This document shows, piece by piece, positions 9,461 through 39,220 of a stretch of DNA of 64,000 bases (its first letter is position 1; the number at the start of each line of letters is the position of its first letter). This stretch comes from Yoonia litorea (GTDB lineage Bacteria; Pseudomonadota; Alphaproteobacteria; Rhodobacterales; Rhodobacteraceae): NCBI RefSeq assembly GCF_900114675.1, contig NZ_FOZM01000005.1, forward strand, positions 1 through 64,000, in the 5' to 3' direction. Below the pieces are notes generated by a model that was not told the DNA's origin, ran no database searches, and worked only from the letters and a program-made list of their open reading frames with translations. The position numbers and the translations under genes were made by a program.

Positions 9461-9478
9461 ATACATTTCGTGACATAT
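9461..9478 (+). promoter_or_regulatory. Candidate response-regulator box
   Basis: ATACATTTCGTGACATAT: two half-sites (TACA and GACA) exactly 10 bp apart, 113 bp before the 9591 lipoprotein gene. Same pattern as the boxes at 13311, 15598, 28031 and 29465, with one mismatch. Confidence 0.4.
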
Positions 9479-9590
9479 CCGTGCCTGACCTCGACTGAAC
9501 AAATAGATAGGTCCATGTTGATTGTTCTCGGTCGGGACCCTGTGATGACGCAGTCATCGTTTGATCCCGCATACCTCTGGGAGCTGCAGC

Positions 9591-10217
9591 ATGAGTTACT
9601 CTTTGAATAGACGACAGGTACTGATTGGCCTGCCATTGACTCTGTCTGCCTGCACTGCATCGCAAGTATGGGCCCCCGACGATGTTGTGGCTCGCGCAAT
9701 CTATCGCGATCCTGGTCCAAAGCATCTTACGCTTTATACAATGAAGAACGTTGGCTCCGACAACGGTGCGCATTCCGCTTTGTTGATCAACGCCAGTCAG
9801 CGCGTGATTTTTGATCCTGCGGGAGCATGGGAACAGCGTCAGATGCCAGAACGCAATGACGTTCTGTTTGGTGCCAGTCCACAGTTAGAGCAGTACTACG
9901 TGAGCTTTCATGCGCGCGTCACATATTACGTCGTTGGTCAAACTGTTGCGGTGACAGATGATGTTGCCGAGCGCGCATTAACACTGGCGTTACAAGCCGG
10001 CCCCGCGCCACAGGCAAACTGCTCTCGCTTTACATCCCGTCTGTTGCGGCAGTTGCCGGGTTTTGGTGCAATCAGGCAGACATGGTTTCCGAACAAACTG
10101 TCGGATGACTTCGGGACACTACCCGGCGCATCCTATCGTGAGTATCGCGAAGATGACGCGGACGACAAAAATGTCGCCGCACGCCAAATTGCAGCGGCTC
10201 TTGAGGCAGGCAACTAG
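9591..10217 (+). CDS. Lipoprotein with possible permuted papain-like fold
   Basis: 208-residue exported protein. The N-terminus NRRQVLIGLPLTLSAC combines an Arg pair and a lipobox (LSAC), so it is probably a membrane-anchored periplasmic lipoprotein. GAHSALLINASQRVIFDPAG (His) is followed about 100 residues later by NCSRFTSRLLRQLPGF (Cys). The order His then Cys is what circularly permuted NlpC/P60 (YaeF/YiiX-like) enzymes show, so a peptidase or acyl hydrolase acting on cell wall or lipid is possible. That assignment is inference. The start is chosen for GGGAG upstream and for the signal. It opens the copper island and has a candidate response-regulator box upstream. Confidence 0.6.
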   Translation: MSYSLNRRQVLIGLPLTLSACTASQVWAPDDVVARAIYRDPGPKHLTLYTMKNVGSDNGAHSALLINASQRVIFDPAGAWEQRQMPERNDVLFGASPQLEQYYVSFHARVTYYVVGQTVAVTDDVAERALTLALQAGPAPQANCSRFTSRLLRQLPGFGAIRQTWFPNKLSDDFGTLPGASYREYREDDADDKNVAARQIAAALEAGN

Positions 10218-10252
10218 GTACAATCAGTCATTGGAGAGGGACGATCGTCGTC

Positions 10253-10459
10253 CTACAATATCGAATAGCCTGTTCGGCCATCGGCACAGATCACGTTGTG
10301 AACACGGGTGTCACTTGATCCGTCCAATGAACAGCCCGTTGGGAGTGCCAATTCGCGTGTCGCGATCTCATCTTTGAAGGGGCAGGTCTTTTCGGCGGTC
10401 GCGCATGCTCCAAGAAGGAGCAAACCGGCCGTAACGAGAACAGACTTTCGCCTTATCAT
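10253..10459 (-). CDS. Small secreted lipoprotein
   Basis: 68 residues. The N-terminal signal ends in the lipobox LLGAC, and the mature part has four further Cys (TCPFKDEI, TGCSLD, VICADG), about half of which could pair. It starts directly after the stop of the DUF2933 gene on the same strand, so the two form an operon. Similar small lipoproteins are common in roseobacters but this one is not recognised. A periplasmic metal-related role is inferred only from its neighbours. Confidence 0.6.
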   Translation of the reverse strand: MIRRKSVLVTAGLLLLGACATAEKTCPFKDEIATRELALPTGCSLDGSSDTRVHNVICADGRTGYSIL

Positions 10460-10768
10460 CTATTGGCGAGACACCTTGGGGACGGCAGCTGACGCATCTT
10501 CGAAAGCAGCATCATTGGCTTGCTTCGAGGCTTTGTCATTCGCGGTGCTATGACAGGATTTACCCATCATCTTGAACATCAGGACATGCGCACCGATGCA
10601 AAGCGCGATCGGGGCAAAAAGGCTCAGGTTAGACCACATGCCGGCGACCGTGCCGCCCGCAAGAAGGAAAGCGCCAACAGGCAGCAACATGACTGCGCAG
10701 CAGGCCATCATACCCCAATGCATCACCTTCGAGGCACTTTCAGACTTGGCCGTATCCTTGTTTTCCAT
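10460..10768 (-). CDS. DUF2933-like small membrane protein
   Basis: 102 residues with two transmembrane helices (HWGMMACCAVMLLPVGAFLL and LFAPIALCIGAHVLMFKMM), a Cys pair in the first helix and a hydrophilic tail with a Cys-His pair (SCHS). The HWGMM-CC pattern is characteristic of DUF2933 proteins, which are found in many copper and mercury resistance clusters. Function is unproven; the Cys/Met pattern in the membrane suggests metal binding. Operon with the following lipoprotein gene. The upstream gap contains a weak CueR-like site and a response-regulator-like box. Confidence 0.7.
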   Translation of the reverse strand: MENKDTAKSESASKVMHWGMMACCAVMLLPVGAFLLAGGTVAGMWSNLSLFAPIALCIGAHVLMFKMMGKSCHSTANDKASKQANDAAFEDASAAVPKVSRQ

Positions 10769-10802
10769 AGCGGATTTATCCTTGACGACAAAAATTTGTA
10801 TA

Positions 10803-10853
10803 ACGATGCGCGCTTCTGGCGGGTGAAAGTCAAGGATACATTTGGGTAAATTT
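10803..10853. promoter_or_regulatory. Intergenic control region of DUF2933 and L,D-transpeptidase 1
   Basis: On the minus strand TTGACT (10828-10833) is followed by 19 bp with a weak TTC...GAA dyad, resembling a degraded MerR-type promoter for the DUF2933 gene. On the plus strand ATACATTTGGGTAAATTT (10836-10853) resembles the response-regulator box at 13311, with a mismatch in the second half-site (TAAA instead of TACA). Confidence 0.35.
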
Positions 10854-10986
10854 TAGTTGTGGCCCCAACTCCGCATTTTCTTGTTGATTCATGATAAATC
10901 CCGAAGGCTGGCTTGCACGAATCGATATCGCTGTTCAGTCAACAAGTCACCAATTCTTTGAACAATTGCAGTCGGAACAAGCCAAA

Positions 10987-11712
10987 ATGCACGATTTGAA
11001 AAGACGCCGCTTTCTTGCAACTGCCACTGCACTGTTTTCAGCACCTTTGGCGGGCTGGGCCCAAGAAGAGCAGGCTAGTGCAGATATCAATGAAGAGCCG
11101 CGGCGCCCGATATCCGACCGTTCGATGTGGGCACGATGGGACGCACGGGTGACACCTGTGAACTATGATCCTATGTCATCCAATCCCTGGGGTCTGCACC
11201 CTCGGTTCTTGCCGCAGCGGGTTGTTGCTAATCCCGGGTTGGTTCCAGGCGACATACATGTAGATGCCGTCGCCCGATATCTCTACCATATCCAAGCCGA
11301 CGGCACCGCCATGCGGTACGGCGTGGCAATTGCCAAGGGCGATCTCTACGAACCCGGTGTTTACACGATCAGAAGAAAGGCGCGTTGGCCGATCTGGACG
11401 CCAACAGCTTCGATGATCGAGCGGGAGCCCGAGGTTTATGGGCCATTCGAAAATGGCATGGACGGTGGACCGTCGAACCCGCTGGGCGCGCGCGCCTTGT
11501 ATCTTTATGAGGGGAACCGCGACACCTATCTGCGGATCCATGGCACGCCTCAGCCACGATCAATCGGTGGGCGGGCCAGTTCCGGCTGTGTGCGCATGGT
11601 GATGGCACACATCATAGATCTTTACCCCCAAGTCAGCACTGGTGTGACTGCTTACCTCTATCCGCCGGAGAATCTGATCTCTCCGCGGAGTGAAATTGAT
11701 CCTGCGGCGTGA
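10987..11712 (+). CDS. L,D-transpeptidase 1 (YkuD family, exported)
   Basis: 241 residues. Twin-arginine-like signal KRRRFLATATALFSAPLAG, then a YkuD domain in the C-terminal half with LRIHGT and, 15 residues on, SSGCVRM carrying the catalytic Cys and the conserved Arg. These enzymes form 3-3 peptidoglycan cross-links or anchor proteins to the wall in the periplasm. The start at 10987 gives the signal peptide directly after a plausible GGAACAAG site; an in-frame start at 10891 would add a non-signal leader. It is the first of three L,D-transpeptidases in the island. Divergent from the DUF2933 operon. Confidence 0.88.
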   Translation: MHDLKRRRFLATATALFSAPLAGWAQEEQASADINEEPRRPISDRSMWARWDARVTPVNYDPMSSNPWGLHPRFLPQRVVANPGLVPGDIHVDAVARYLYHIQADGTAMRYGVAIAKGDLYEPGVYTIRRKARWPIWTPTASMIEREPEVYGPFENGMDGGPSNPLGARALYLYEGNRDTYLRIHGTPQPRSIGGRASSGCVRMVMAHIIDLYPQVSTGVTAYLYPPENLISPRSEIDPAA

Positions 11713-11730
11713 TGGCTGAGAGCCGATAGT

Positions 11731-12021
11731 TTAACCCGTTTCAGTTGTATCGGGCAGTTGGGTGCAAATCGGCCGGCCTCTGACGGTACGTAGTGGCAGG
11801 TAAGTCGTTTCAACGGGACCAGCATATTCGTAGACGTAACAGCCGTCTGCTGGGTCAATCCGTACCCGGTTAAGGTCTTGATTGGGTGCGACCATCGTCA
11901 AAACCTGCTCTGGCAGGTTCGTGATAAAGCCTGAATTCGTCGTCACTTCGGGACCCGAGGCCGCAGAACACGCAGCAATTACAGATGGTGAAAGACACCA
12001 AATCAAACGACGAAGTCTCAT
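11731..12021 (-). CDS. Small exported lipoprotein
   Basis: 96 residues. Signal peptide RRLIWCLSPSVIAACSA with a lipobox-like end. The mature protein has two Cys (GCYVYEY and PICTQL), which could form one disulfide. Not recognised. Last gene of a minus-strand run DUF411, membrane protein, lipoprotein, and convergent with L,D-transpeptidase 1 (18-bp gap). A role in the periplasmic copper response is inferred only from position. Confidence 0.55.
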   Translation of the reverse strand: MRLRRLIWCLSPSVIAACSAASGPEVTTNSGFITNLPEQVLTMVAPNQDLNRVRIDPADGCYVYEYAGPVETTYLPLRTVRGRPICTQLPDTTETG

Positions 12022-13310: not shown

Positions 13311-13329
13311 TTACATTTGGCTACAAACA
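13311..13329 (+). promoter_or_regulatory. Candidate response-regulator box (self-control)
   Basis: TTACATTTGGCTACAAACA: TACA and TACA 10 bp apart, between the divergent DUF411 gene and the response-regulator gene, 42 bp before the latter. Best match of the set together with 15598 and 28031. Confidence 0.5.
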
Positions 13330-13370: not shown

Positions 13371-14090
13371 ATGACACTATCTCCGCACATCCTCATCGTT
13401 GATGACCACCAAGAAATTCGAAAGTCTGTTTCGCGGTATCTGGAGCGGAGCGGAATGCGCACATCCGTTGCCGAGGATGCCGCTGAAATGGACATTCGGC
13501 TCGCCGAACAAAAATTTGATCTGATTGTCTTGGATGTCATGATGCCAGGCGAAGACGGTTTGAGTGCGTGCAAGCGTCTGCACGAGACAATCAAAACCCC
13601 AATTCTTATGCTGACAGCCATGGGTGATGACGATGATCGGATTGCTGGCCTTGACGGTGGGGCTGACGATTATCTGGCGAAGCCGTTTAATCCAAGGGAA
13701 CTACTGGCCCGCATTAACGCTATCCTCCGCCGGACTGAGCAAATCCCGGAAATTGCGTCCTTCTCTGGCAAATGGCTGCGCTTCGCTCATCTTAAACTCG
13801 ACTATGATGGACGCACATTGTTCGATGGAGATGGTACGAGAACACTGCTGACAACGAGCGAACTAAAACTTCTGACGATCCTGCTCGAACGTCCACGGGC
13901 GGTGCTCAGCCGCGACCAGCTTCTTGAGCTGAGCGCAGGCCGGGTGGCTGGTCCACTCGATCGGACGATTGACAATCAGATCAGTCGCCTGCGTCGGAAA
14001 ATCGAACAGGATGTATTGCGCCCACGTGTGATCGCGACGGTCAGAAATCGGGGTTATAGCCTGACTGCGGACGTTGAAGTGTTGGAGTGA
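13371..14090 (+). CDS. OmpR-family response regulator (copper type)
   Basis: 239 residues. Receiver domain with Asp11/Asp12, phosphoacceptor Asp55 (LIVLDVMMPG), Thr82 and Lys104 (LAKPF). C-terminal winged-helix DNA-binding domain (TTSELKLLTILLERPRAVLS, then DRTIDNQISRLRRKIEQ). It overlaps the sensor kinase gene by four bases, so the pair is coupled. OmpR-family regulators bind tandem half-sites about 10-11 bp apart. The TACA-N6-TACA repeats in this island, including one 42 bp upstream of this gene, are therefore likely to be its sites. Copper sensing is inferred from the neighbours and from the kinase's Met/His-rich loop. Confidence 0.92.
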   Translation: MTLSPHILIVDDHQEIRKSVSRYLERSGMRTSVAEDAAEMDIRLAEQKFDLIVLDVMMPGEDGLSACKRLHETIKTPILMLTAMGDDDDRIAGLDGGADDYLAKPFNPRELLARINAILRRTEQIPEIASFSGKWLRFAHLKLDYDGRTLFDGDGTRTLLTTSELKLLTILLERPRAVLSRDQLLELSAGRVAGPLDRTIDNQISRLRRKIEQDVLRPRVIATVRNRGYSLTADVEVLE

Positions 14091-15544
14091 CGTCGGTGGT
14101 GTGGAAGCTCAGAACACAGATTGCACTTCTGGTTCTCGCAGTGCTGTGCGTCGCGCAGGCTTTGAGCCTATGGTTCTTTGTCGATGAAAGATCGCTCGCT
14201 GTGCAGGCTGCGATTGGTGCCGAAGCGGCCGGTCGCGCCGCCAATGTTGCCCAACTTGTCGAAGGTGCGCCCGACGATTTGCATTCACGGATCATTCAGG
14301 CGGCCACATCGCCGTTAGTCAGCTTTGAGCTTTCAGATATCCCGTCGGTCGCACATGGCAATCATGACGAAGGTGGCGCGGTTGAGGCTCGTGTTCGTGC
14401 GCTGTTGGGTGACAGTTATAGCCGGGACATTCGGGTTGAAGTGCATGAAATCGAACAGGGGTTGCTACCGCTTCCAAACCTTTCGCCAGAGATGGCCGAG
14501 ATGCATGCCGAGATGATGAGGGGGAGCCTGGCAGCCATTGAGATGGAATTATCAATCGCGTTGGCAGGTGGTGAATGGCTGAACGTTGGCACAAGGTTTG
14601 AGCGGCCTCCGCTCCAATGGTCAACTGCATCAAATGTATCCTTTGTGATAACAGCAACACTTCTATTACTTGCAAGCTTTTGGTTCATTCTCCGGCGTTT
14701 GACGGGGCCTCTCAACGGTTTGGCGATGGCCGCAGAACGTCTGGGGCGTGGAGCAGGTGAGGGGCCGCTACCTGTTGTCGGACCGAAGGAGGTTCAAGAC
14801 CTGACAAAGGCATTTAACACCATGCAGGATCGCTTGACCCGGTTTGTTTCGGATCGCACGCAAATGCTAGCCGCACTTGCGCATGACCTTCGCTCACCTT
14901 TGACCGCTCTGCGGGTGCGCGCTGAGATGGTCGACGATGATGAAACGCGAACATCACTTGTGGCATCAGGAGAAGAAATGCAACAGATGGTGGATGCCAC
15001 ACTGGACTTTGCAAAGGGTGTTGGGCAGCACGAGGAAGTCTGCCCAACCGATGTTCGCGAATTACTTGGCGATATTCAGAACGATGGTTTGACGGTATTG
15101 TCCGATCAATCCGTGATGGTCCCCGCTAAGCCGACCTCATTGCGTCGAGCACTTAAAAATCTCATCGAGAATGCCATTCGCTACGGAAAACAGGCCGAAG
15201 TCTCTTGGGAGGCGACTGATGGCTATCTTGCGCTCTACATTGACGATCGCGGACCAGGAATACCGCCTAGCGAACTCGACAGTGTTTTTGGCCCCTACGT
15301 CAGGCTTGAAAGGTCGCGGTCGCGTGACACTGGCGGCCATGGTTTGGGGTTGTCGATTGCGAGAAGCATCATCCTTGGACATGGCGGAACAGTTGAATTG
15401 GCAAATAAGGAAAAAGGCGGACTCCGTGCTATCGTGAAGTTGCCCTTTGCGCCTAGCTCAAAGCAGACGGAAGATTTGACCGAGAACGAAGCACGTAGAA
15501 CTTCTCCGATCGAAGAACGACATCATCAAAGTGTCGATGCTTGA
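14087..15544 (+). CDS. Sensor histidine kinase (copper type)
   Basis: 485 residues. Helix 1 (IALLVLAVLCVAQALSLWFF, residues 11-31), a periplasmic sensor region, helix 2 (about 184-203), HAMP linker, then HisKA with His266 in LAHDLRSPLTAL and the ATP-binding domain (NLIENAIRYG, DDRGPGIPP, GGHGLGLS). The periplasmic part carries HGNHDEGG and a Met/His cluster at 135-144 (EMAEMHAEMM), the type of residues that bind Cu(I) or Ag(I). Start is a GTG overlapping the response-regulator stop (GTGA). It probably detects periplasmic copper. Confidence 0.9.
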   Translation: MTSVVWKLRTQIALLVLAVLCVAQALSLWFFVDERSLAVQAAIGAEAAGRAANVAQLVEGAPDDLHSRIIQAATSPLVSFELSDIPSVAHGNHDEGGAVEARVRALLGDSYSRDIRVEVHEIEQGLLPLPNLSPEMAEMHAEMMRGSLAAIEMELSIALAGGEWLNVGTRFERPPLQWSTASNVSFVITATLLLLASFWFILRRLTGPLNGLAMAAERLGRGAGEGPLPVVGPKEVQDLTKAFNTMQDRLTRFVSDRTQMLAALAHDLRSPLTALRVRAEMVDDDETRTSLVASGEEMQQMVDATLDFAKGVGQHEEVCPTDVRELLGDIQNDGLTVLSDQSVMVPAKPTSLRRALKNLIENAIRYGKQAEVSWEATDGYLALYIDDRGPGIPPSELDSVFGPYVRLERSRSRDTGGHGLGLSIARSIILGHGGTVELANKEKGGLRAIVKLPFAPSSKQTEDLTENEARRTSPIEERHHQSVDA

Positions 15545-15597: not shown

Positions 15598-15615
15598 TTA
15601 CATATCAATACAAAA
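15598..15615 (+). promoter_or_regulatory. Candidate response-regulator box
   Basis: TTACATATCAATACAAAA: TACA-N6-TACA, 81 bp before the L,D-transpeptidase 2 gene that opens the cytochrome and multicopper oxidase operon. Nearly the same as the box at 28031. Confidence 0.5.
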
Positions 15616-15695: not shown

Positions 15696-16265
15696 ATGGC
15701 AATCAATCCCCAACTTATCTCTCGTCGTACGTTCGTTGCATCTGTAGGCGCAGCCACACTTGCTGCGCCTTCTCTGTTGTCGGCTCAAGAGCTGACCGGT
15801 GTTTCGCGTAACATCGCATCGTTTCGGCCGCATAACTGGCAAGATCACTTTGATAGCATCGGGAAAGGCATCCTACTTGCAGATACTGGAGGGCGCTTCC
15901 TGCAACACTGGACGGCCGATGGGGAGATGCGCCTTTATCCCACCTCTGTTCCCTTGTCAGATGACTTGACGCGCCTGGGATACACCGAGGTGATCGACAA
16001 AAAGGTTGCGCCCGGCTGGGGCCCAACGCCCGCGATGCGTGAACGTAACCCTGAATGGCCAGCCTATATTCCCGGTGGTGACCCGCGTAATCCTCTGGGA
16101 TCTCATGCACTTTACCTGTCGTGGCAATACTATCGCATTCACGGTACGCAGGACACGCGCAAGATCGGACGTCAGTCATCGAACGGCTGTATTGGGCTGT
16201 ACAACGAACAGATTGAAGAGGTGTTCGGCCGCACCCCAATCGGGACACAGGTCAAACTGATCTGA
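15696..16265 (+). CDS. L,D-transpeptidase 2 (YkuD family, Tat-type signal)
   Basis: 189 residues. Tat-like signal SRRTFVASVGAATLAAPSLL, then a YkuD domain with YRIHGT and, further on, SSNGCIGLYN holding the catalytic Cys. The residue two after the Cys, usually Arg or Asn, is Gly here. The family's conserved PGGDPRNPLGSHAL-type stretch precedes the active site. The start at 15696 has AGGCAGC upstream. First gene of an operon with four cytochromes and a multicopper oxidase (stop overlaps the next start by one base), an unusual place for a wall enzyme. A response-regulator box lies 81 bp upstream. Confidence 0.88.
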   Translation: MAINPQLISRRTFVASVGAATLAAPSLLSAQELTGVSRNIASFRPHNWQDHFDSIGKGILLADTGGRFLQHWTADGEMRLYPTSVPLSDDLTRLGYTEVIDKKVAPGWGPTPAMRERNPEWPAYIPGGDPRNPLGSHALYLSWQYYRIHGTQDTRKIGRQSSNGCIGLYNEQIEEVFGRTPIGTQVKLI

Positions 16266-16723: not shown

Positions 16724-16735
16724 AAGGGACGACAG

Positions 16736-21039: not shown

Positions 21040-21070
21040 GAACTAGGGCTTCCAGTAGGGGGAAGGTCAA
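21040..21070 (-). promoter_or_regulatory. CueR-type promoter of copZ
   Basis: Minus strand: -35 TTGACC (21065-21070), a 19-bp spacer containing TTCC-N7-GGAA, and -10 TAGTTC (21040-21045). The long 19-bp spacer and centred dyad are diagnostic of MerR-family activation. Confidence 0.85.
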
Positions 21071-21108: not shown

Positions 21109-21139
21109 TTGAGCTTCTAGTCACTGGAACCTCCACATT
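21109..21139 (+). promoter_or_regulatory. CueR-type promoter of copA-cueR
   Basis: -35 TTGAGC (21109-21114), 19-bp spacer with TTCTAGTCACTGGAA dyad, weak -10 CACATT (21134-21139), 29 bp before the copA start. Less perfect than the copZ site. Confidence 0.75.
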
Positions 21140-23688: not shown

Positions 23689-24078
23689 ATGAACATTGGT
23701 GAAGTATCTGAACGCTCTGGATTGCCAGCAAAGACGATTCGTTACTACGAAGATATCGCGCTCGTGCGTCCGTTGCGCAGTGCAAACGGGTACCGCAGTT
23801 TTCGCGAAAGCGACATCCACAAACTGGCATTTCTCGGGCGGGCACGCGCGCTAGGCTTTTCAATCGAAGACTGCCGCATCCTGTTGGATCTGTATGAGGA
23901 TAAGTCGCGGGAAAGCGCGCAGGTCAAGGCTGTGGCTGAAGGGCATCTCACGGAGATTGACAATAAAATTGCGCAGCTGAAGTCAATGCGGGAAACACTA
24001 TCGCAATTGATCGAGACATGTCACGGCGACCATCGGCCTGATTGTCCGATCCTGAAAGATCTTTCCGGCAACACTTGA
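23689..24078 (+). CDS. cueR: CueR-type copper regulator
   Basis: 129 residues. MerR-family N-terminal helix-turn-helix (MNIGEVSERSGLPAKTIRYY), dimerisation helix, and C-terminal metal loop ETCHGDHRPDCPIL in which the two Cys are eight residues apart, as in CueR (Cys112 and Cys120), with no third Cys as in zinc or lead sensors. Senses Cu(I)/Ag(I)/Au(I) and activates promoters with 19-bp spacers. In operon with copA. Its likely sites are at 21040, 21109, 36118 and possibly 36792 and 37962. Confidence 0.93.
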   Translation: MNIGEVSERSGLPAKTIRYYEDIALVRPLRSANGYRSFRESDIHKLAFLGRARALGFSIEDCRILLDLYEDKSRESAQVKAVAEGHLTEIDNKIAQLKSMRETLSQLIETCHGDHRPDCPILKDLSGNT

Positions 24079-24137: not shown

Positions 24138-26201
24138 TTACCGTACCGAGGCGGCTTCCAATGCGTTCATTACGGCGTCTTTGGTCAGAATTTCGGAAAG
24201 GATCAGCCCTTCTGGCGCGGCAGGTCCGTAGACGACATTGAACGGTATGCCAAATCGATCAAAGGTCTCCAGATAGCGCGAGATGGCAGGGTCAGAGCGG
24301 GTCCAGTCAGCTTGCATCGCCACAGTATCATCTTCGGCAAGTCGAACTGAAACGGGAGCACGATCAAGCACGAGCGCCTTGTTTGCCTTGCAGGTCAGGC
24401 ACCAATCGGCGGTGACGTCGACAAAAACTGTTTTTCCTTGCGAGACCAGCCGCGGGATTTCGCTCTGGTCGAAAACAACCCAATCTTGACCGATTTGTCG
24501 CGCTTCTACGGGTCCAGCGCCGGTTGCGGGCAATGCAATACCAAGAATTGCAATTGCCGTCAGCATTCCCGCGCGTGTGAAACTGCCGATCTTTGGAACT
24601 GCCGCGATCGTGACAAAGAGAACCGCAACACCAGAGACTAGATACGCTGCCATCCGTCCGGCTACCCCACTGAGAACCCACAGCAGCCAGACGGCTGTGG
24701 CCGCGAGTAGAAAGCCGAGGATCCACTTGACGACATGCATCCAACGGCCGGGCTTTGGCAAAGACCGGACTAATCCAGGACGCCAAGCAAAGAGCAAGTA
24801 GGGAGACGCGAGGCCAAGACCCAAAGCCGTAAATACGACCACGACATCTATCGGACGGCCCGTGAGCGCAAAAGCCACGGCAGTGCCTAGAAATGGTGCA
24901 GAACAGGGCGTTGCCAGCACCGCCGCAAAGGCACCAGTGGCAAAATCACCTGCATAGCCCGCGCGCCCACTGCTACGAGCCATCCGCGTTTGGAGTTCAG
25001 AGGGGAGAGAAACCTCGAAGACACCAAACAGGTTGGCCGCAAAGATGGCCAATACCAAAAACATTATAGCGAGGAAAATCGGGCTTTGGAATTGCAGACC
25101 CCAGCCCACTGTGACCCCGATGGCCTGAAGCAGCAGGATTATCGCAGACAGGACCCACATGAACGTCAGAACACCCAGCGCGGACATCAGGAAACTGTTG
25201 CGAAGTTGCCCCCTTGGTTTGTCGCGTTGGTTTATGACCGAAGCAAGCTTGATGGAAAGAACGGGAAGCACGCATGGCATCACATTCAGGATCAACCCGC
25301 CAAGCAAGGCGAATATGGCGATTGTCGCGATCTGCGCCGCATCCGGCAAAGATTGCGCCAGCGCGAAGGGCGGTTGTGGAACCTCCTGCGACCAGGCTGG
25401 GGCGGCGGTTACGGCGCGTGTATTATCCGTCAGCGTGACTGATATCGGGGGGATCTCAGCATCGCGTGCATAAAGAGGCAGTCTTGCCCAAAGTTCGGTT
25501 CCCGCGCCGTTGGTTCTGATGTCTGGTTGGCCAAAGGTAAAGCTGGGGCCCATTTCAGGGAAAACATCTGGCGCGACAAAGCGATTTTCTGAGCGTGCGG
25601 TCACAAAAAGCGCATCATCGGTTATGACCGCCGTTTCGATTAAGATATCGCTTGCCGCGTGGTCGAGCGGTACTTTGCTTGCAAATTCGGTGATCAGGTC
25701 CCCTGCTGTCAGATCGATCCCGACGCCCGCAGGCAGAGACAATGTCAGCAAGAAGTCATGCGGAACGCAGATGTCCGAACATGTCAGCAAGGTCACATTC
25801 GCGGCAAGAGAGGCAGGCGCGCCCGGATCCTTCAATTGAATCTCGATCGGCAGCACGACACGATCACGATAGCCAAAGTTTTCAATCCCGAACGCCGTGA
25901 ATCGTTCAGGTGCTGGCCAGAGGATATGCGCATTCGCCAGGTTTTCAGAGCCGTCCCACGAGATTTCCGGTGGAAGGCCAACTTCGCCCGGCGATCGCCA
26001 ATAGGCCTTCCATCCTTCCCCGAGCTGCAGATCAAGACCAAGTGAAAGTGTCGTTGCGTTCGGCGGAACAGCGTTCTCGACCGAGATCAGCCGCGCATCG
26101 ATACCCAAGGATGTGTAGGAATCCGACACCGCCGCAGGCAGGACGGTTGCCCAGAGAACAACCACGACGTTCAGAAGAAATAGGCGGCCAAAAGCCCGCA
26201 T
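24138..26201 (-). CDS. scsB: ScsB/DsbD-type membrane electron transporter
   Basis: 687 residues. Signal peptide, a large periplasmic N-terminal domain to about residue 285 with Cys pair LTCSDICVPHD, eight or so transmembrane helices (first one GGLILNVMPCVLPVLSIK carries the conserved Cys; the second Cys is in ATPCSAPFLG), and a C-terminal thioredoxin-like domain with CLTC (about residue 600). It takes electrons from cytoplasmic thioredoxin to periplasmic thiols. The larger N-terminal domain is as in ScsB (suppressor of copper sensitivity) rather than DsbD. Partner likely the ScsC-like protein at 20101. Confidence 0.9.
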   Translation of the reverse strand: MRAFGRLFLLNVVVVLWATVLPAAVSDSYTSLGIDARLISVENAVPPNATTLSLGLDLQLGEGWKAYWRSPGEVGLPPEISWDGSENLANAHILWPAPERFTAFGIENFGYRDRVVLPIEIQLKDPGAPASLAANVTLLTCSDICVPHDFLLTLSLPAGVGIDLTAGDLITEFASKVPLDHAASDILIETAVITDDALFVTARSENRFVAPDVFPEMGPSFTFGQPDIRTNGAGTELWARLPLYARDAEIPPISVTLTDNTRAVTAAPAWSQEVPQPPFALAQSLPDAAQIATIAIFALLGGLILNVMPCVLPVLSIKLASVINQRDKPRGQLRNSFLMSALGVLTFMWVLSAIILLLQAIGVTVGWGLQFQSPIFLAIMFLVLAIFAANLFGVFEVSLPSELQTRMARSSGRAGYAGDFATGAFAAVLATPCSAPFLGTAVAFALTGRPIDVVVVFTALGLGLASPYLLFAWRPGLVRSLPKPGRWMHVVKWILGFLLAATAVWLLWVLSGVAGRMAAYLVSGVAVLFVTIAAVPKIGSFTRAGMLTAIAILGIALPATGAGPVEARQIGQDWVVFDQSEIPRLVSQGKTVFVDVTADWCLTCKANKALVLDRAPVSVRLAEDDTVAMQADWTRSDPAISRYLETFDRFGIPFNVVYGPAAPEGLILSEILTKDAVMNALEAASVR

Positions 26202-26270: not shown

Positions 26271-26288
26271 AAATGTATCAAAATGTCT
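26271..26288 (-). promoter_or_regulatory. Candidate response-regulator box for scsB
   Basis: On the minus strand GACATTTTGATACATTTT: the ACA half-sites are 10 bp apart, one mismatch from TACA-N6-TACA, 70 bp before the scsB start and between it and the divergent oxidase gene. Confidence 0.35.
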
Positions 26289-28030: not shown

Positions 28031-28048
28031 TTACATATAGATACAAAA
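28031..28048 (+). promoter_or_regulatory. Candidate response-regulator box
   Basis: TTACATATAGATACAAAA: exact TACA-N6-TACA, 88 bp before the permease gene. Fifteen of 18 bases match the site at 15598. Confidence 0.5.
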
Positions 28049-29464: not shown

Positions 29465-29482
29465 ATACAATTCATTACAATA
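29465..29482 (+). promoter_or_regulatory. Candidate response-regulator box
   Basis: ATACAATTCATTACAATA: exact TACA-N6-TACA, immediately after the permease stop and 91 bp before dsbB, placing dsbB, DUF2182 and lgt in the same set. Confidence 0.45.
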
Positions 29483-29572: not shown

Positions 29573-30064
29573 ATGGCGCACAAACCTCATCAGATCGCAC
29601 TTTTGGCCGCGACCGGCTCACTCCTTTTGTTGTCGGGGGCATGGTTCTTTCAGGCCCTTGGCTACGCGCCTTGCACAATGTGCATCTGGCAGCGCTATCC
29701 GCACGGCATAGCCATTGGGATCGGATTGCTTGTGCTTGTCGGTTTGCGGTACCGCGCGGTTTACCTTTTGGGTGCAGGTGCGGCGGCCGCAACGGCTGCC
29801 CTGGGCTTCTATCATACCGGTGTGGAACGCGACTGGTGGGAAGGTCCAACCACCTGTAGCGGCGATGCCGGGGACATGGCAAACATGACCGCTGATCAAC
29901 TACTGTCCACAACTGAGCCACTGAACATGGTGCTTTGTGACGAAGTAGTTTGGGAATTCCTCACCCTCTCGATGGCCAGCTGGAACGCAATCCTCAGCCT
30001 CGTGATCACTGCTCTTTGGGTCGCCGCAATTGTTGCGGCTGGTCGTTCTCGGACAGCTGTCTAG
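29573..30064 (+). CDS. dsbB: DsbB-type disulfide generator
   Basis: 163 residues with four transmembrane helices. First redox pair CTMC in GYAPCTMCIWQRYPH (the CxxC-xWQRYPH motif of DsbB); second pair in the periplasmic loop (TTCSGDAG and LCDEVVWEFL). It re-oxidises DsbA-type proteins and passes electrons to quinone. Partner may be the ScsC-like protein at 20101. The DUF2182 gene follows 44 bp later. RBS AGGAACCGG. Confidence 0.9.
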   Translation: MAHKPHQIALLAATGSLLLLSGAWFFQALGYAPCTMCIWQRYPHGIAIGIGLLVLVGLRYRAVYLLGAGAAAATAALGFYHTGVERDWWEGPTTCSGDAGDMANMTADQLLSTTEPLNMVLCDEVVWEFLTLSMASWNAILSLVITALWVAAIVAAGRSRTAV

Positions 30065-30108
30065 CTGTCAGTACCTGCTTGGGGCGCACGCGGTTTAGGA
30101 GCCACTTT

Positions 30109-30813
30109 TTGCAGCAAAGTATTCTAAGAAACACCTTCTGGTTGGGCTTTTTTGCCATCGTGCTTTGGGCCTGGTGGGTCATGTTCGGCATGACAGTTGC
30201 CCCTATGTCGATGATGCCCAGCCAGTACCTTGGCCTATTTTCAATGTGGGCGATCATGATGGCAGCCATGATGGGCCCGACCTTTGTCCCAACGATGCGC
30301 GCCTACGAAGACCTGATCACTTCTGCGAATGGTAGCAGGGCAGGTTCCGTCGGGGTCGTTTTGGGCTTTTTCGTCGTATGGGTAGGATTTGCCGGGCTGA
30401 TAGCATTTGCGCAATATACGCTGATCGAGGTCGGTTTGCTGACCGCGATGGGGCAATCTGTATCCAGATACTTTTCAGCGGCTTTGCTGCTTTCTGCCGG
30501 TGCATATCAGTTTACCGCGCTCAAGGACCGATGCCTGGATCATTGCAGGTCCCCAACTTTCCAGTTTCTTGCGCATTGGCGAACAGGGTTTTCCGGTGGT
30601 GTCTATATGGGATTGCACCACGGCGCCTATTGCGTTGCTTGCTGTTGGGGGCTCATGGTCATCGGTTTTGTGGGGGGTGTCATGGACCTGATCTGGATGG
30701 GCGGAGCGACAGTGATGATGACGTTGGAAAAGCTGCCCCAGGTAGGGCGATACCTCACGCGGCCACTCGGTTTTGGCCTTATCGCGTGGGGCGTGCTTAC
30801 ACTAATTCAATAG
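30109..30813 (+). CDS. DUF2182 integral membrane protein
   Basis: 234 residues, about six helices. TTG start at 30109 with AGGAG seven bases before it is preferred; the longer in-frame extension overlaps dsbB. Carries the DUF2182 signature: [30 protein letters not shown] and [16 protein letters not shown], rich in Met, Cys and His within the membrane. The family is annotated as predicted metal-binding membrane proteins and is found in metal-related clusters. Function unproven; membrane copper binding or relay is plausible. Confidence 0.8.
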
Positions 30814-30829
30814 AAACTGTTCGCGCCGA

Positions 30830-31744
30830 ATGATGATCGCTTCTCTACCATTCCCAGATATTGGAACTGAGCTATTTGCGGTGGAACTTGGAGGTTTTCG
30901 ATTTGCGTTGCGCTGGTATGCGCTCGCATACATCATAGGTCTTTTCATTGGGTGGCGTATCTGTTCCAGAGCAATCAAGCAGACCAATTTATGGGACCAA
31001 ACTGGCCCTCCATTCTCCAAGCAACAGCTGGAGGATCTATTTGTCTGGATCGTCGCAGGCGTAGTCATCGGAGGGAGGCTAGGATTTGTGGCATTCTACC
31101 AGCCAGAATTCTATCTGCAGAACCCATTGGAAGTGCTCAAGGTTTGGCAAGGCGGCATGTCTTTCCATGGGGGCTTTCTTGGTGTGGTCATCGCAACAAT
31201 CATTTTCTGCCGCCGTCGTGGCCTTGCACTGTTACCGACCGCCGATCTATTGGCGATTGCGACCCCACCGGGTCTATTTCTGGGCAGGTCGGCGAACTTC
31301 ACCAACAATGAGTTGTGGGGGCGCCCTACCGATGTGCCGTGGGGTGTCGTCTTTCCCGGTGAGGCAGCACAAACTTGTCCGGACATCGTTGGCATTTGTG
31401 CCCGACATCCATCCCAACTCTATGAGGCTGCCCTAGAGGGACTGTTGCTTGGCTCGCTGCTCTTGTTCTTGGCATGGCGGCGCGGTTGGTTGCGCTCACC
31501 CGGCATGCTTACCGGCATCTTCTTGATCGGATATGGTCTTTCACGCTTTATCGTAGAATTCTTTCGGCAGCCGGACGTTCAGTTCGTCGGCCCAGGAAAC
31601 CCAATCGGCCATGTGCTGAGCGCAGGCGATTGGGGCATCACTATGGGTCAATCCCTGTCTGTTCCAATGGCGCTGTTTGGGGTCGCACTGCTCGTTCTTT
31701 CAATGCGAAATCGCAAGATAGATGCACGAAAAGGGCAGACTTAG
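30830..31744 (+). CDS. lgt: Prolipoprotein diacylglyceryl transferase (second copy expected)
   Basis: 304 residues, seven helices. Lgt signatures: [11 protein letters not shown] near the N-terminus, [36 protein letters not shown] and the conserved HPSQLYEA. It attaches diacylglycerol to the lipobox Cys of prolipoproteins, the first step of lipoprotein maturation. This step is essential and every roseobacter chromosome should have its own copy, so a plasmid copy inside a copper regulon implies an extra or stress-specific enzyme. It begins 16 bp after DUF2182 in the dsbB transcription unit. Confidence 0.92.
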
Positions 31745-33722: not shown

Positions 33723-33735
33723 GGGAAGAGGCCAC

Positions 33736-36087
33736 CTAAAGCTGAATGCGACGCAATCGCAAGGCGTTTGCAATCACCGAGACAGAAGAAAGGCTCATGG
33801 CTGCTGCAGCAATCATCGGCGACAATAGCAACCCGAAGACAGGATAAAGGATGCCAGCAGCGACAGGGACACCCGCTGTGTTGTATGCAAATGCAAAAAA
33901 CAGGTTTTGCTTGATGTTGCGAACGGTCGCTTTTGCCAGTTTTCGTGCACGAACAAGGCCGACAAGATCACCACCCAAGAGTGTGATCCCGGCGCTTTCA
34001 ACGGCGACATCCGAACCCGTGCCCATGGCGATGCCGACATCAGCCGCTGCGAGGGCAGGGGCATCATTCACACCATCGCCGGCCATCGCAATTTGTGCGC
34101 CGCCCTGTCGCAGCTTTGCGACCAGATCTTTCTTGTCTTCTGGCAGAACACCGGCATGCACCTCATCAATACCAAGCTTGCGAGCGACTGCCTCCGCTGT
34201 TTTCTGGTTGTCCCCTGTTGCCATAATGACTTTCAAACCAAGGCGGTGAAGTTCGGCAATGGCACCTGCGGTCGTATCTTTGATAGGATCAGCCACGGCA
34301 ACAATCCCTGCAAACCGGCCGTCAATCGCAACAAACATCGCCGTCTTGCCTTCCGACCGAAGATCGTCGGCGGCTGTTTCGGCAAGTGCATAGTCAACCC
34401 CAAGTTCCTGCATCATGGCCGGGTTTCCAAGCGCCACCAGATGATCCTGGACCTGACCCTTGACGCCCTTGCCTGTGATTGCCTCAAACCCTGTCGTGCG
34501 ACCCAAAGACAGACCACGAGATTGCGCACCTTCAACAATGGCTTCAGCCAAAGGATGTTCAGATCCCCGCTCTAGCGCAGCTGCAAGAGCTAGTACCTGG
34601 TCCTCGGTTTGATCCCCGACCACGACAACATCAGTCAGCTTCGGCCGCCCTTGGGTCAGTGTTCCGGTCTTGTCAACAATGACCGTGTCTACTTTTGCCA
34701 TCCGCTCGAGGGCCTCAGCATCCTTGATCAAGACACCGGCCTGCGCGCCACGCCCTGCCGCGGTGGTGATAGAAATCGGGGTAGCCAGCCCGAGGGCGCA
34801 TGGGCAAGCGATGATCAAGACCGAAACGGCAGACGTAATTGCAAAGGCCGAAGCAGGGTCAGGACCGAACGAGAGCCAGACGAAAAAGGATACGATTGCG
34901 ATCACCACAACTGTTGGCACGAAAACCGATGACACCCGATCCGCCAAACCCTGAATTGGGGCACGAGAGCGCCTGGCACCCGCCACCATATCGACGATTT
35001 GCGACAGCACAGTATCTGCACCAACTTGCGTGGCACGGATGGCCATTGATCCGTTCTTGTTCAGCGTACCGCCAGTAACGCGATCCCCTTCATTTTTTTC
35101 AACGGGCAGCGGTTCGCCGGTGATCATGCTTTCATCAACTGATGAGACGCCCTCAACAACCTCGGCATCAACCGGAATACTGTCGCCGGGCCGCACGCGC
35201 AGCATGTCGCCTTCCACAATATGCTCCAATGGCGCGTCGTATTCAGTGCCGTCTGGCAGAATGCGACGGGCGGTCTTGGGCGCAAGGTCCAACAATGCAC
35301 GGATCGCATCACCTGTCCGCTCTCGGGCACGAAGCTCCAGCACTTGCCCAACAAAGACCAGCGCCACGATGACGACCGCAGCTTCGTAATAGGTGCCAAC
35401 GGTTTCACCAGTGCGATATTCGTCAGGGAAAATCCCGGGGAGGAAGGTTGCTGCAAGCGAATAGACATACGCAGCACCAACACCCAGTGCGATCAGCGTC
35501 CACATGTTTGGCGAGACATTTCTGATCGAGTCGATACCCCTTCTGAAAAAGGGAAGCGCCGCCCAGAGAATGATCGGCGTCGCCAAGAGGAACTCAACAT
35601 AGACGGCTGTTTGATGTCCGATCCAGTCCCGAACCGGTAAGCCAAACAGTTCGCCCATGGTCAAGATCACCAAAGGTACAGCAGCGAAAGCACTTATCCA
35701 CATCCGCCTGGTAAAGTCAGTCAGCTCTTCAGACGGCTCATCCGATGGCACAGTAGGTTCAAGCGCCATACCGCAAATCGGGCAGGCACCGGGCGCGTCC
35801 CGAACGATCTCTGGATGCATCGGACAAGTCCATTCCGTCCCAGACGGCGCGACCATTCCTGTTTTTCGGGCATTGCCCGATGCGTAGTAGAACGGATCCA
35901 CTCCAAACTTGGTTTCGCAGTTCTCCGAGCAGAAATAATACCGCTCACTACCATAGTCGAAATACAAGGTGTCTGCGTTTATGGCAACGGTCATGCCGCA
36001 GACGGGATCGGTCGCGGTTTCTGTGCCCTCAGGAAATTGATCGTGGGCATGAGCGTGCCCGTGTGAGTGCTGGTGATCGTTCGCCAT
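33736..36087 (-). CDS. Copper P-type ATPase 2 with YHS and HMBD domains
   Basis: 783 residues. Starts with a His-rich tail ([12 protein letters not shown]), then a YHS/TRASH-type metal site (DPVCGM at 27-32; Cys53 and Cys57), then the heavy-metal-binding domain TCPMHPEI...CPICGM (88-107). There is no HMA domain. Core motifs CPCALG, DKTGTLT, SEHP and GDGVNDAP are present. It is a P1B copper or silver exporter of the CopF/SilP-like type, different from CopA at 21169. A good CueR-type promoter is at 36118-36148. PBP2 follows on the same strand. Confidence 0.93.
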
Positions 36088-36117: not shown

Positions 36118-36148
36118 AAGCTAGTCATTCCAGCGACAGGAAGGTCAA
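36118..36148 (-). promoter_or_regulatory. CueR-type promoter of ATPase 2
   Basis: Minus strand: -35 TTGACC (36143-36148), 19-bp spacer with TTCC-N7-GGAA, -10 TAGCTT (36118-36123), 31 bp before the start codon. One of the two best copies in the window. Confidence 0.85.
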
Positions 36149-36221
36149 GACAGCCACCCTACTGCATATGTATCAATTCGTAACAGGAAGGCTGGAAAAC
36201 GAGGTCATGCCATCTTGTCGG

Positions 36222-36803
36222 TCAACCCAAAGTCAAAACCAATCCATCAGATACGGTCATCTTTGGAATATGCAGGTTTTCAGGTGCCGGGCCCTTCCTG
36301 ATGCGACCGGACGTATCGTAGTGTGAGCCATGGCAAGGGCAGAACCAACCCCCAAAATCACCAGCCCCATCCCCAAGCGGGACACAGCCAAGATGCGTAC
36401 AGACCCCAATCATGACAAGATATGCGTCATGTCCAGGCACAACACGATTTTCATCGGATGCGAGGTCACCATCAGAAAGGTTGGGATTTCTGGCATCCTG
36501 ATCAGGCAGGTCGGTGACCGCCTCGGACCGGGCCAGCGCAATCTCTTCTTCTCTTCTATGGCGGACAAAAACCGGTTTGCCCGCCAACATGATCGTCAGC
36601 TGCGTACCTGGCGCGACAGCAGAGACATCAACACGAATGCTCGACAATGCTAGCACGTCGGCTGAGGGGTTCATTTGGTTGACGAGGGGCCAGACTGCAG
36701 CACCGACTGCGACGGTGCCTGCACCTGCAGTTGCATAGTACAAGAAGTCGCGTCGCGCGGGGTTCACTGAACGATCAATTTCCATGATTCGCTTTTCGGC
36801 CAT
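36222..36803 (-). CDS. Rieske iron-sulfur protein without bc1 partners
   Basis: 193 residues from 36803 (a shorter start at 36785 is possible). Tat-type signal [21 protein letters not shown] followed by a Rieske domain with CTHLGC and CPCHGSHYD, both clusters complete, and [12 protein letters not shown]. It resembles the PetA subunit of the bc1 complex (ubiquinol-cytochrome c reductase). No cytochrome b or c1 gene lies nearby, so it would either join the chromosomal bc1 complex or work alone. A CueR-like site overlaps its start, which suggests copper control. Confidence 0.88.
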
Positions 36804-36822
36804 TCCCACGCAGGAAGGTCAA
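36792..36822 (-). promoter_or_regulatory. Candidate CueR-type site at the Rieske gene
   Basis: Minus strand: -35 TTGACC (36817-36822), 19-bp spacer with TTCC-N7-GAAT, poor -10 GAAAAG. If used, transcription would begin near 36785, at the ATG of MEIDRSVNP, giving a leaderless message. Confidence 0.45.
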
Positions 36823-36862
36823 TAGCGTTGCTGACACCGTCAGGACTGACAGTGATGCTCCA

Positions 36863-37537: not shown

Positions 37538-37937
37538 AGAGCACCACCAAAAACAGGGCGGCCAAAAGATCATAAACCACGCAGAATGGAACATACCAAC
37601 GCGGAACCGGTGCGCCAATGATGGGTCTGTGATGTAGAAAGTCCCAGAGCGCATGGAACGTCAAACCAAGCGGGATTGCGATCCAGTGCCACAATAGACC
37701 GGCGAGGGCCGCCATCCCGAACAGGATGGCGACCAAAAGCTCCAGCACCATTGTCCGGATGTCCTGCGCACTGGCACCAAAGCCGATATATGCGCCACCA
37801 ATCAGCGCAAGTGTCATGGCCGCAATCGCTACCGAAACACTCTCACTGACCACCAAGTGCACTGGGGCAGAAAGGAGAAACAGAAATCCGCCAACAATGG
37901 CTGGACGGTGGATATGAATTTGAGACTGCATTCCCAT
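37527..37937 (-). CDS. Small multi-pass membrane protein (DUF6010-like)
   Basis: 136 residues, four helices. The C-terminal half has GLTFHALWDFLHHRP and RWYVPFCVVYDLLAALFLV, with conserved His/Trp/Asp that resembles DUF6010 proteins. Function unknown. It starts the unit with the TVP38 gene, and a CueR-like site is 25 bp upstream, so the pair may be copper-induced. A second ATG two codons on (37931) is equally likely. Confidence 0.6.
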   Translation of the reverse strand: MGMQSQIHIHRPAIVGGFLFLLSAPVHLVVSESVSVAIAAMTLALIGGAYIGFGASAQDIRTMVLELLVAILFGMAALAGLLWHWIAIPLGLTFHALWDFLHHRPIIGAPVPRWYVPFCVVYDLLAALFLVVLYAF

Positions 37938-37961
37938 CTTTCAAGCTGAGTGATGAAGCCC

Positions 37962-37992
37962 GTCTTCATGCTTCCAGCGGATGTAAGGTCAA
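37962..37992 (-). promoter_or_regulatory. Candidate CueR-type site before the 37527 gene
   Basis: Minus strand: -35 TTGACC (37987-37992), 19-bp spacer with TTAC-N7-GGAA, poor -10 GAAGAC. The first half of the dyad is degraded compared with 21040 and 36118. Confidence 0.45.
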
Positions 37993-38055
37993 GCACTATT
38001 TTCCAGCATTGTGGCAGCCGATATGGCAGGACGGATGCTTTGCCAGCCTCGCGCT

Positions 38056-38523
38056 TCAGGCAAGCACCTCTGGTAGCGTCGCCAGCGCTAATTCCAAATC
38101 AACGATTGGAAGGCCGGCCGCAATCCAGCCAGGCCCCAAAGACGAGCCCAACATTCCTTCTGAGACATCAATAAACCCGCTATAACCAGCCTGGCGCAGG
38201 CTGCGCATCACGCTGCCGGATCTGCCGCCTGTTGCGCATGTCAGCGCAACCGGTCGTCCACCTGCAAGCTCACGCGCGGCAAACAGCCGTTCTGAAAAGC
38301 GGTCTTCATGAAGACTGATAGGCCATGCACCTTCTGCAATGCCCGTTTCTGCCCATTCTGCCCGTGAGCGTATATCGATTAAACGGATTTGATCGGTGAT
38401 CAGGCCGTCATATGTTTGGCCAACTGACCAGACATCTGCAGTTTGTGCGAAGCCGACTGACGGTGCGGCCACCATGGCGGCCAGCGCGGTCAAAGCCCTG
38501 CGGCGATTAATATGGTTCATCAT
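38056..38523 (-). CDS. Exported rhodanese-domain protein
   Basis: 155 residues. Tat-like signal NRRRALTALAAMVAAPSVGFA, then a single rhodanese domain with RLIDIRSRAEWAETGIAEGA and the active-site loop LTCATGGRSGSVM containing the catalytic Cys. Periplasmic sulfur transfer, or binding of Cu by the loop Cys, is plausible. RBS AAAGGA. 15 bp after the EF-hand gene on the same strand, so probably one operon. Confidence 0.85.
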   Translation of the reverse strand: MMNHINRRRALTALAAMVAAPSVGFAQTADVWSVGQTYDGLITDQIRLIDIRSRAEWAETGIAEGAWPISLHEDRFSERLFAARELAGGRPVALTCATGGRSGSVMRSLRQAGYSGFIDVSEGMLGSSLGPGWIAAGLPIVDLELALATLPEVLA

Positions 38524-38538
38524 GCTTGGTCCTTTGCA

Positions 38539-39102
38539 TCAATTGTCATTCCCGTGATGATCCGCAGCCCCACCTGCCGGCGCTTGACGCATGGCGCCGA
38601 TCCTTTGACCTGCCGCTTGCATCTCTTGTTGGGTGACTTGGCCATCGGCATCCGCATCAAGGTGCTGAAACCGGTCAACCATACGGTCACGTACAGCATT
38701 TGTGTGCAGCGCCTCGAATTCTTCAAGCGTCAAGACACCATCTGCATTTGCGTCAAACTCTTCCAACTTGACCTCCATATGGGGTGCCATGTTCTCTGGA
38801 TCGCCGCCAGGCATCATCATGTACATCATGTCACTGTCCATCATTCCCATGCGATCGTCACCGGACATCATACCCATCTGACCGTGACCGCCCATCATGG
38901 ACTGATGCATGCGCATCATCATTTGCATCATATCCATCATCGCGGGATCGCCGCCCATACCCATGCTTCCGGGACCGCCGGATTGTGTCATCATATCCAT
39001 GCCCTGATCGGCACCAGCGCCATGATCTTCGTTGGCAATAGCGGCCTGTGTAACACCTGCGGAAATCACAACAGCAGCAATCAAAGTACGTTTTCTAGGC
39101 AT
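38539..39102 (-). CDS. Exported Met-rich EF-hand protein
   Basis: 187 residues. Start 39102 has AAAGGA six bases upstream; a longer frame has no such site. Signal peptide to about residue 22 (ending AAIANE), then about 90 residues extraordinarily rich in Met, Gly, Asp and His (MMDMMQMMMRMHQSMMGG), then two EF-hands DANADGVLTLEEF and DADADGQVTQQEM. It resembles CopK/PcoE-type copper buffers joined to a calcium-binding pair. Operon with rhodanese. Response-regulator boxes upstream. Confidence 0.82.
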   Translation of the reverse strand: MPRKRTLIAAVVISAGVTQAAIANEDHGAGADQGMDMMTQSGGPGSMGMGGDPAMMDMMQMMMRMHQSMMGGHGQMGMMSGDDRMGMMDSDMMYMMMPGGDPENMAPHMEVKLEEFDANADGVLTLEEFEALHTNAVRDRMVDRFQHLDADADGQVTQQEMQAAGQRIGAMRQAPAGGAADHHGNDN

Positions 39103-39175
39103 TTTCATTCCTTTCAGTCTGCAGCGTAGATATCGGAACAAATACCTCACGTATGAAGACGTCCGCGGCGTGTGT

Positions 39176-39220
39176 TTTGTAATTATTTGTCTGCGGCGAT
39201 GGTTACAAATGGTGACAAAC
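39176..39220. promoter_or_regulatory. Paired response-regulator boxes between EF-hand gene and ccmF
   Basis: Minus strand copy GACAAATAATTACAAAAC (39176-39193) faces the EF-hand gene; plus strand copy GGTTACAAATGGTGACAAAC (39201-39220) faces ccmF. In each the ACA half-sites are 10 bp apart, with one of the two TACA cores changed to GACA. Confidence 0.45.

Follow-up and report, generated by a model that had tools for sequence, protein, structure and literature searches.

We analysed a 64,000-nucleotide stretch of the Yoonia litorea genome (hereafter the window; bases 1-64000 of the 100,387-bp contig C7, in a 3.32 Mb genome of 8 contigs), which carries a copper island and, upstream of several island operons, a short tandem repeat built on TACA-N6-TACA that is very probably the docking site of the island's own response regulator, as the sequence comparisons below suggest. 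Contig C7 is probably a plasmid, judging from the company of its relatives. The island encodes an OmpR-branch response regulator (13371..14090, plus strand; Response_reg and Trans_reg_C domains), which is the proposed binder; an EnvZ-branch sensor kinase (14087..15544, plus) with a predicted periplasmic methionine/histidine (Met/His) cluster made up of H93, M136, M139, H140, M143, and M144; and two L,D-transpeptidases (LDT1 and LDT2) plus a third at 43.6 kb. LDT2 (15696..16265, plus; YkuD domain) is the first gene of its operon. Further products are cytochromes c, multicopper oxidases, DsbA/ScsC-like and DsbD/ScsB-like proteins, two copper ATPases, CueR, DsbB, a DUF2182 protein, Lgt, a penicillin-binding protein 2 (PBP2), a Rieske protein, and Ccm proteins. 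A DNA search with the regulator-kinase-LDT2 region matched 172 plasmid records, mostly from Rhodobacterales by the names listed, with at least 80% of the query covered in 11 of them; all 12 plasmid stretches that we read (11 from Rhodobacterales and one from Martelella) contain a rearranged copper island.

A sequence-only reading of this DNA had listed four exact plus-strand copies of TACA-N6-TACA (13312, 15599, 28032, and 29466) and five sites with one mismatch. The four exact copies are where it placed them, and the five others exist with coordinates mostly one or two bases off (the TACA starts are at 9462, 10837, and 39204, and the minus-strand cores at 26272-26288 and 39176-39192). Scanning the whole genome gave 18 exact copies, 13 outside the window and 5 inside, where the site density outside the window predicts 0.26 (P(≥5) = 7e-6; 1.4e-4 counting only the four promoter sites); the chance level that had been given, one per 65 kb per strand, was conservative. 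The reversed pattern, used as a control, is commoner (57 vs. 18 in the genome). The fifth exact copy in the window (16188, minus), which had been missed, lies inside the LDT2 gene and is absent from the matches scoring at least 7 with the matrix described below, and is therefore treated as a chance occurrence. With the stricter pattern WTACA-N6-KACAAW, five of the ten sites in the genome are in the window (P = 7e-8; one site for the reversed-pattern control), and all three genomic copies of TTACA-N6-TACAAA are found there. None of the five WTACA-N6-KACAAW sites outside the window was kept as a target: four are inside mechanically called open reading frames (ORFs) of at least 120 amino acids, and the fifth, on contig C2, has no such ORF near it. 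On the 100-kb contig this pattern is confined to 13.3-39.2 kb, so that the regulon, which had been called plasmid-wide, is island-wide. In a sweep of spacer lengths from 0 to 30, N6 is the outlier (four plus, one minus), followed by N16 (two plus, one minus).

We built a scoring matrix from 35 distinct boxes found before the regulator gene in other organisms, with the window excluded (44 of 55 orthologues gave a box). Its consensus, TG(A/T)TACA-N4-GY(G/T)ACAA(A/T), reduces to GNKACA-N4-GNKACA, a 10-bp direct repeat; together with the spacer sweep, it bears out the proposal of two tandem half-sites 10 bp apart, in the manner of OmpR-family operators. In order of score, the matches in the window are 13311, 39203, 9461, 15598, 36167 (minus), 29465, 29176 (minus), 28031, 20198, 26272 (minus), 39176 (minus), 12441, and 10836. 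Eleven matches score at least 12, whereas 100 matrices with permuted columns gave 1.04 on average and never more than 5; at a score of at least 10 there are 13 matches, against an average of 2.31. Eight of the nine sites noted before are clearly recovered and 10836 weakly, with one new site before copB; the matches at 29176 (in the permease gene) and 20198 (in a ScsC-like gene) are intragenic and probably due to chance. The 12 plasmid relatives contain 47 matches of at least 14, which, compared by hand with the gene tables, fall between annotated genes in 42 cases, immediately upstream of the regulator but within an annotated divergent gene next to it in 4, and inside another gene in 1. The spacer letters within the box vary among relatives while the box itself is conserved. 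Many of the relatives' regulator promoters carry another box in the opposite orientation, which lies some 32 bp further up and faces the divergent gene; in the window's own regulator promoter no such second box was clearly seen.

The box and the regulator travel together. Taking a match with an E-value of at most 1e-80 as presence, 45 of 244 sampled Rhodobacterales genomes (Y. litorea included) carry the regulator. Among the best 29 LDT2 matches outside the Y. litorea genome (E-value at most 9e-78), a box precedes LDT2 in 23 of the 23 genomes with the regulator and in none of the 6 without it (Fisher test, 2e-6; 22/23 vs. 0/6, 1.5e-5, at a score threshold of 14), in agreement with the earlier proposal of a regulon read by the island's own response regulator. 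The six regulator-free genomes fall in at least two LDT2 lineages, so that a single founder does not account for them; six genomes (L134, L143-L145, L149, and L151) keep a close LDT2 relative with neither regulator nor box. Of the 29 regulator promoters that were read (out of 46 regulator matches, the window's own one excluded), 28 have a box no more than 200 bp from the gene (between -57 and -63, or at -129), and the 29th has one about 1.37 kb upstream. At one locus (L032:6529-7836) a gene annotated as sialidase family stands between box and regulator, placing the box at about -1370, and in genome G178 (L166) the box is at a similar distance. From this co-occurrence we infer that the regulator physically binds the box.

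For conservation of the individual sites, we counted boxes scoring at least 14 upstream of homologues in 84 relatives, after removal of near-identical upstream regions; the sample comprises the 12 plasmid loci and 72 of 80 others (L059, L075, L095, L106, L110, L115, L117, and L122 were dropped because they lie too near the end of a contig, are short, or are close to another row). Permuted matrices gave a mean of at most 0.1 in the same counts and never more than 1. The box before the regulator (TTACATTTGGCTACAAA, 13311..13327, plus; matrix score 26.7), which would provide autoregulation, is 17 bp long and ends 43 bp before the start codon (42 in the earlier reading); regulator homologues have a box in 51 of 68 upstream regions, a set that partly overlaps the training set. 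The box before the operon of LDT2, cytochrome, multicopper oxidase, and DsbA-like genes (15598..15614, plus; 20.2) recurs before 14 of 37 LDT2 homologues, and before 14 of the 16 with at least 65% identity. The ccmF gene (39301..41313, plus; family match) is preceded by a box at 39203..39219 (plus; 25.5) with counterparts in L027, L028, and L046; only 2 of 13 CcmF homologues have one, and three that lack it (L033, L035, and L036) follow the regulator-kinase pair on the same strand and presumably belong to its operon or lie near it. Divergent from ccmF is a gene for a Met-rich, EF-hand-like protein (38539..39108, minus; assigned from its translation and a weak, below-cutoff match to an EF-hand type family), with MM/MGM runs and an EF-hand-like C-terminus, which is possibly a periplasmic copper sponge. 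The box before its start at about 39108 (39176..39192, minus; 13.0) has stronger counterparts in L027 and L028, and all 5 homologues have a box, four of them through that of the neighbouring divergent gene. For dsbB, the DUF2182 (PpoB2) gene, and lgt (29573..31744, plus; family matches), the box at 29465..29481 (plus; 17.1) recurs in 3 of 4 distinct upstream regions of dsbB homologues.

Other sites are less secure as pointers to a target. A strong box (9461..9477, plus; 24.3) precedes an ORF for a putative lipoprotein (about 9591-10217), which has no tblastn match among the 84 loci searched. The box before scsB, whose product is ScsB/DsbD-like (24138..26201, minus; family match), is weaker (26272..26288, minus; 14.2) and is found before 1 of 17 homologues. 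The box at 28031..28047 (plus; 15.2) has a good sequence, but the APC-type permease gene that follows is a doubtful target, and we rejected it: of 11 homologues, a single one has a box, which is marginal and lies on the other strand. LDT1 was likewise rejected: the second half of its box is TAAA (10836..10852, plus), its score of 10.3 is at the level where permuted matrices average 2.3 matches, and none of 11 homologues with at least 50% identity reaches 14. The earlier target list was also incomplete, having overlooked the CueR-type elements at the pumps (see below) and a box (36167..36183, minus; 17.1) before the CopB-type copper ATPase (33736..36087, minus; family match), which is at the same place in L028 and L033 and precedes 2 of 31 homologues. 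A PBP2-type transpeptidase (31785-33773, minus) and a Rieske-type protein (36222-36809, minus) also sit within the island. By eye, twin-arginine-like signals (RRxFL/RRQVL) start the exported products of 9591-10217, 10891-11712, 15696-16265, and 26363-27649; export in folded form might shield their cysteines from copper.

The regulator belongs to the OmpR/PhoB family (PF00072, 108.2 bits, and PF00486, 69.3 bits, both over cutoff) and fits none of the named subfamilies: its best NCBIfam model is OmpR (NF007005, 242.8 bits; cutoff 331), and it is also below the cutoffs for RstA (NF007977, 139.6 bits; 330) and CopR/SilR/CzcR (TIGR01387, 139 bits; 279.2). The kinase is best matched by EnvZ (NF007004, 192.3 bits over residues 186-455 only; cutoff 415), and is below cutoff for the RstB model (138.8 bits; 478) and the heavy-metal kinase (TIGR01386, 117.7 bits; 292.55). 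The recognition helix of the regulator, RTIDNQISRLRRK (found in this exact form in 37 orthologues), is near-identical to that of OmpR, RSIDVQISRLRRM. The Y. litorea genome has further OmpR-family genes, the best of them 47% identical to the regulator, and the two closest paralogues have different recognition helices (RAVDVQITRLRRK and RAIDVLVGRLRNK). On contig C5, an exact TACA-N6-TACA precedes the homologous region of a 39%-identical regulator (C5:210347-211148; L006, L041) by 84 bases, and a divergent ORF near it resembles, by eye, a sugar-binding protein.

In the sensor domain of the kinase, the Met/His cluster forms the motif M-x2-M-H-x2-M together with H93. Across 22 kinases, a hand-picked set that leaves out most motif-free ones, M136, H140, and M143 never vary and H93, M139, and M144 hardly do; on a wider count, the motif is present in 46 of 55 orthologues with at least 59% identity. 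Kinases were found in 81 of the 84 loci plus the window (whose copper-gene count was entered by hand), and 46 of the 81 have the motif. At least two of ten island genes are present at 39 of the 46 loci with the motif and at 4 of the 35 without it (p = 3e-11), and the link persists when the plasmid rows and the window are removed (26/33 vs. 4/35, p = 2e-8). A structure model of the kinase (predicted local distance difference test score 74.5, predicted template modelling score 0.37) places the motif in a helix, 134-144, within a low-confidence stretch. The cluster is most naturally read as a periplasmic Cu(I)/Ag(I) site, and the conserved cluster and its gene context make copper the most likely signal.

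The pumps appear to be under an additional layer of control. The island encodes CueR (23689..24078, plus; TIGR02044, 155.9 bits, above the cutoff of 147.4), a protein that senses cytoplasmic Cu(I) and acts at MerR-type dyad promoters. Using TTGACCTTCC-N7-GGAA, which we take to be the CueR-type promoter pattern, we found elements before copA (21109..21129, plus; 2 mismatches), before copB beside the 36167 box (36128..36148, minus; 0 mismatches), and at the position occupied in relatives by a heavy-metal chaperone gene on the minus strand (21050..21070, minus; 0 mismatches). The window and the 12 plasmid loci together have 33 matches, against 8 for the reversed pattern. In the window, a search for such elements before the regulator, LDT2, dsbB, and ccmF found none. 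In L030, L031, L032, and L034, a CueR-type element lies beside the regulator's box in the intergenic region and faces the divergent gene; similar dyads near the LDT2 box were seen by eye in some relatives (for example, L135, L141, and L155). The CueR gene and these elements suggest a two-layer control, in which CueR would drive efflux and the two-component system the envelope functions, with copB under both.

We consider it likely that the pair is an autoregulated copper two-component system of the EnvZ/OmpR branch, outside the CopRS/CusRS models, and that the box is the operator of its regulator. In such a system, the kinase would sense periplasmic copper (or silver) through the Met/His cluster, and two monomers of the phosphorylated regulator would bind head to tail on the two GNKACA half-sites 10 bp apart. 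The regulator would activate its own operon; the operon of the extra L,D-transpeptidase with its cytochromes c, multicopper oxidase, and DsbA-like protein; and the cytochrome c maturation set, the Met-rich EF-hand gene, and dsbB-DUF2182-lgt. CopB would be activated jointly with CueR, the regulator proposed for the pumps and the cytoplasmic chaperone. We infer activation rather than repression, with copper as the signal.

Several observations weigh against this model. Since regulator promoters supplied the training set of the matrix, the counts before the regulator are partly circular, which does not apply to the LDT2 count. For LDT2, the boundary of the best 29 matches is not a natural gap. 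Among 20 further LDT homologues (55-65% identity), hand-chosen from the list below the best 29, a box is found in none of 8 regulator-carrying genomes and none of 12 others, most of these homologues being probably of the housekeeping type. In three genomes of one genus (G027, G076, and G091), the LDT gene is box-free and shares a contig with the regulator, about 18 kb from it; these may be true exceptions, and counting them as island-type gives 23/26 vs. 0/6 (one-sided P about 1e-4, calculated by hand). The relatives are not phylogenetically independent, and several of the boxes have exactly the same sequence; scores are modest for 26272, 28031, and 39176, and conservation fails for part of the earlier target list. 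For the kinase motif, the link to copper genes is weak when only loci beside regulators of at least 59% identity are compared (39/46 vs. 4/9, p = 0.02), and the plasmid stretches are longer than the other loci, which bears on the gene counts. Finally, the parts consulted of PMC9426580 report that strains of Dinoroseobacter shibae grow equally with copper, cobalt, and zinc whether or not they have a 102-kb plasmid that carries a two-component system and heavy-metal genes. A 102-kb D. shibae plasmid of another strain carries this regulator pair and other D. shibae plasmids match it too (H37, H38), so redundancy may explain the equal growth.

It is hardly credible that the repeats are no more than A+T-rich promoter words arisen by chance, or copies of a repeat element, with no regulator involved: promoters are indeed A+T-rich, and of the nine sites three are weak or lack support, but this reading is countered by the genome-wide rarity, the control with permuted matrices, the conservation of boxes whose spacer letters vary, and the association with the regulator. 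The box could instead be bound by another OmpR-family regulator of the host, such as a chromosomal paralogue that the island borrows. OmpR-type boxes resemble each other across the family, and the further OmpR-family genes of Y. litorea include the one on C5 with an exact repeat upstream; we nevertheless regard this as very unlikely, because the LDT2 box follows the presence of the regulator, which is the best evidence on this point: genomes without it, where other OmpR-family genes are presumed, lack the box before LDT2 (0/6 among the best 29 matches), and the two closest paralogues carry other recognition helices.

Two further alternatives accept the box and concern the signal or its weight. 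The regulator may bind it in response to envelope or redox stress or to silver, the copper genes being bystanders. The kinase is of the EnvZ branch, many targets are envelope-maturation genes, and in the parts consulted of PMC9426580 the D. shibae strain with the 102-kb plasmid is slightly more resistant to silver, with no effect for copper; the conserved M-x2-M-H-x2-M motif and H93 go with copper genes, however, and a copper ATPase and a multicopper oxidase are among the targets, so that we hold a non-copper signal to be unlikely. It is quite unlikely that the island's copper response is mainly that of CueR and merely fine-tuned by the boxes: this would accord with the CueR gene, with its elements at copA, copB, and the chaperone position, and with the elements and dyads beside boxes in some relatives, but before the regulator, LDT2, dsbB, and ccmF the window has boxes instead of CueR-type elements.

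The operator itself is of a known kind, because OmpR, RstA, and RisA are already known for direct repeats of 10 bp and half-sites of the GTTACA/TACA kind. In the parts consulted of PMC7380067 and PMC11019879, OmpR binds tandem 10-bp half-sites and GTTACA is the RisA motif; the system described here resembles OmpR in its half-sites, its recognition helix, and its best family score, and RisA in its GTTACA-like half-site, but differs from both in missing the OmpR cutoff, in its Met/His kinase, and in serving a copper island instead of porins or virulence genes. The RstA box of Escherichia coli and Klebsiella, TACATNTNGTTACA in the parts consulted of PMC4117788, likewise has tandem TACA half-sites 10 bp apart, is read by an OmpR/PhoB family protein, and tolerates one imperfect half-site; by eye, the box at 13312 differs from it at one defined position, whereas the RstA and RstB models do not fit and the regulon here is one of copper and envelope genes. 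CopR/PcoR systems (TIGR01387) share two-component control of copper genes adjoining the regulator; both proteins are below those cutoffs, however, and the site bound by CopR and PcoR is an inverted repeat within 16 bp (PMC7380067, in the parts consulted), not a direct repeat as here. The CueR regulon overlaps through the CueR gene of the same island and the element at the copB promoter, but differs in its dyad promoters and cytoplasmic sensing. No description of the regulon appears among the titles and abstract openings listed in a search confined to open-access literature; the operator type was already known.

Some island genes have counterparts elsewhere in the genome. Contig C8 has a second CcmF and a second Lgt, two further proteins have a PBP-dimerisation domain, and an LDT2 paralogue on contig C6 is 57% identical. 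That copper inhibits L,D-transpeptidases is stated in PMC11390936 and PMC8263019, both of which cite Peters et al. (2018). Together, the duplicates and this inhibition lead to a tentative reading, which we hold to be possible but short of probable, of the regulon as a mobile repair-and-replacement kit for copper-poisoned envelope machinery: the copper-sensing pair would switch on a second L,D-transpeptidase and cytochrome c maturation, disulfide-bond, and lipoprotein enzymes, the extra copies being copper-tolerant, while CueR handles efflux. Loss of the copper-sensitive catalytic cysteine from the island LDT2 was considered and rejected, since the cysteine is kept (SSNGCIGL in 22 of 29 and SSSGCIGL in 7 of 29); the C6 paralogue also has SSNGCIGL, and the shared motif speaks neither for nor clearly against such a kit.

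These results would give a testable regulatory logic to a widespread plasmid-borne copper island of Rhodobacterales, found also in Martelella, under a branch of two-component systems that differs from the known copper regulators. They would also connect the cross-linking of peptidoglycan, the maturation of cytochrome c, and disulfide chemistry with copper stress; since copper inhibits L,D-transpeptidases (PMC11390936 and PMC8263019, in the parts consulted), an extra, copper-linked transpeptidase would have an obvious rationale.

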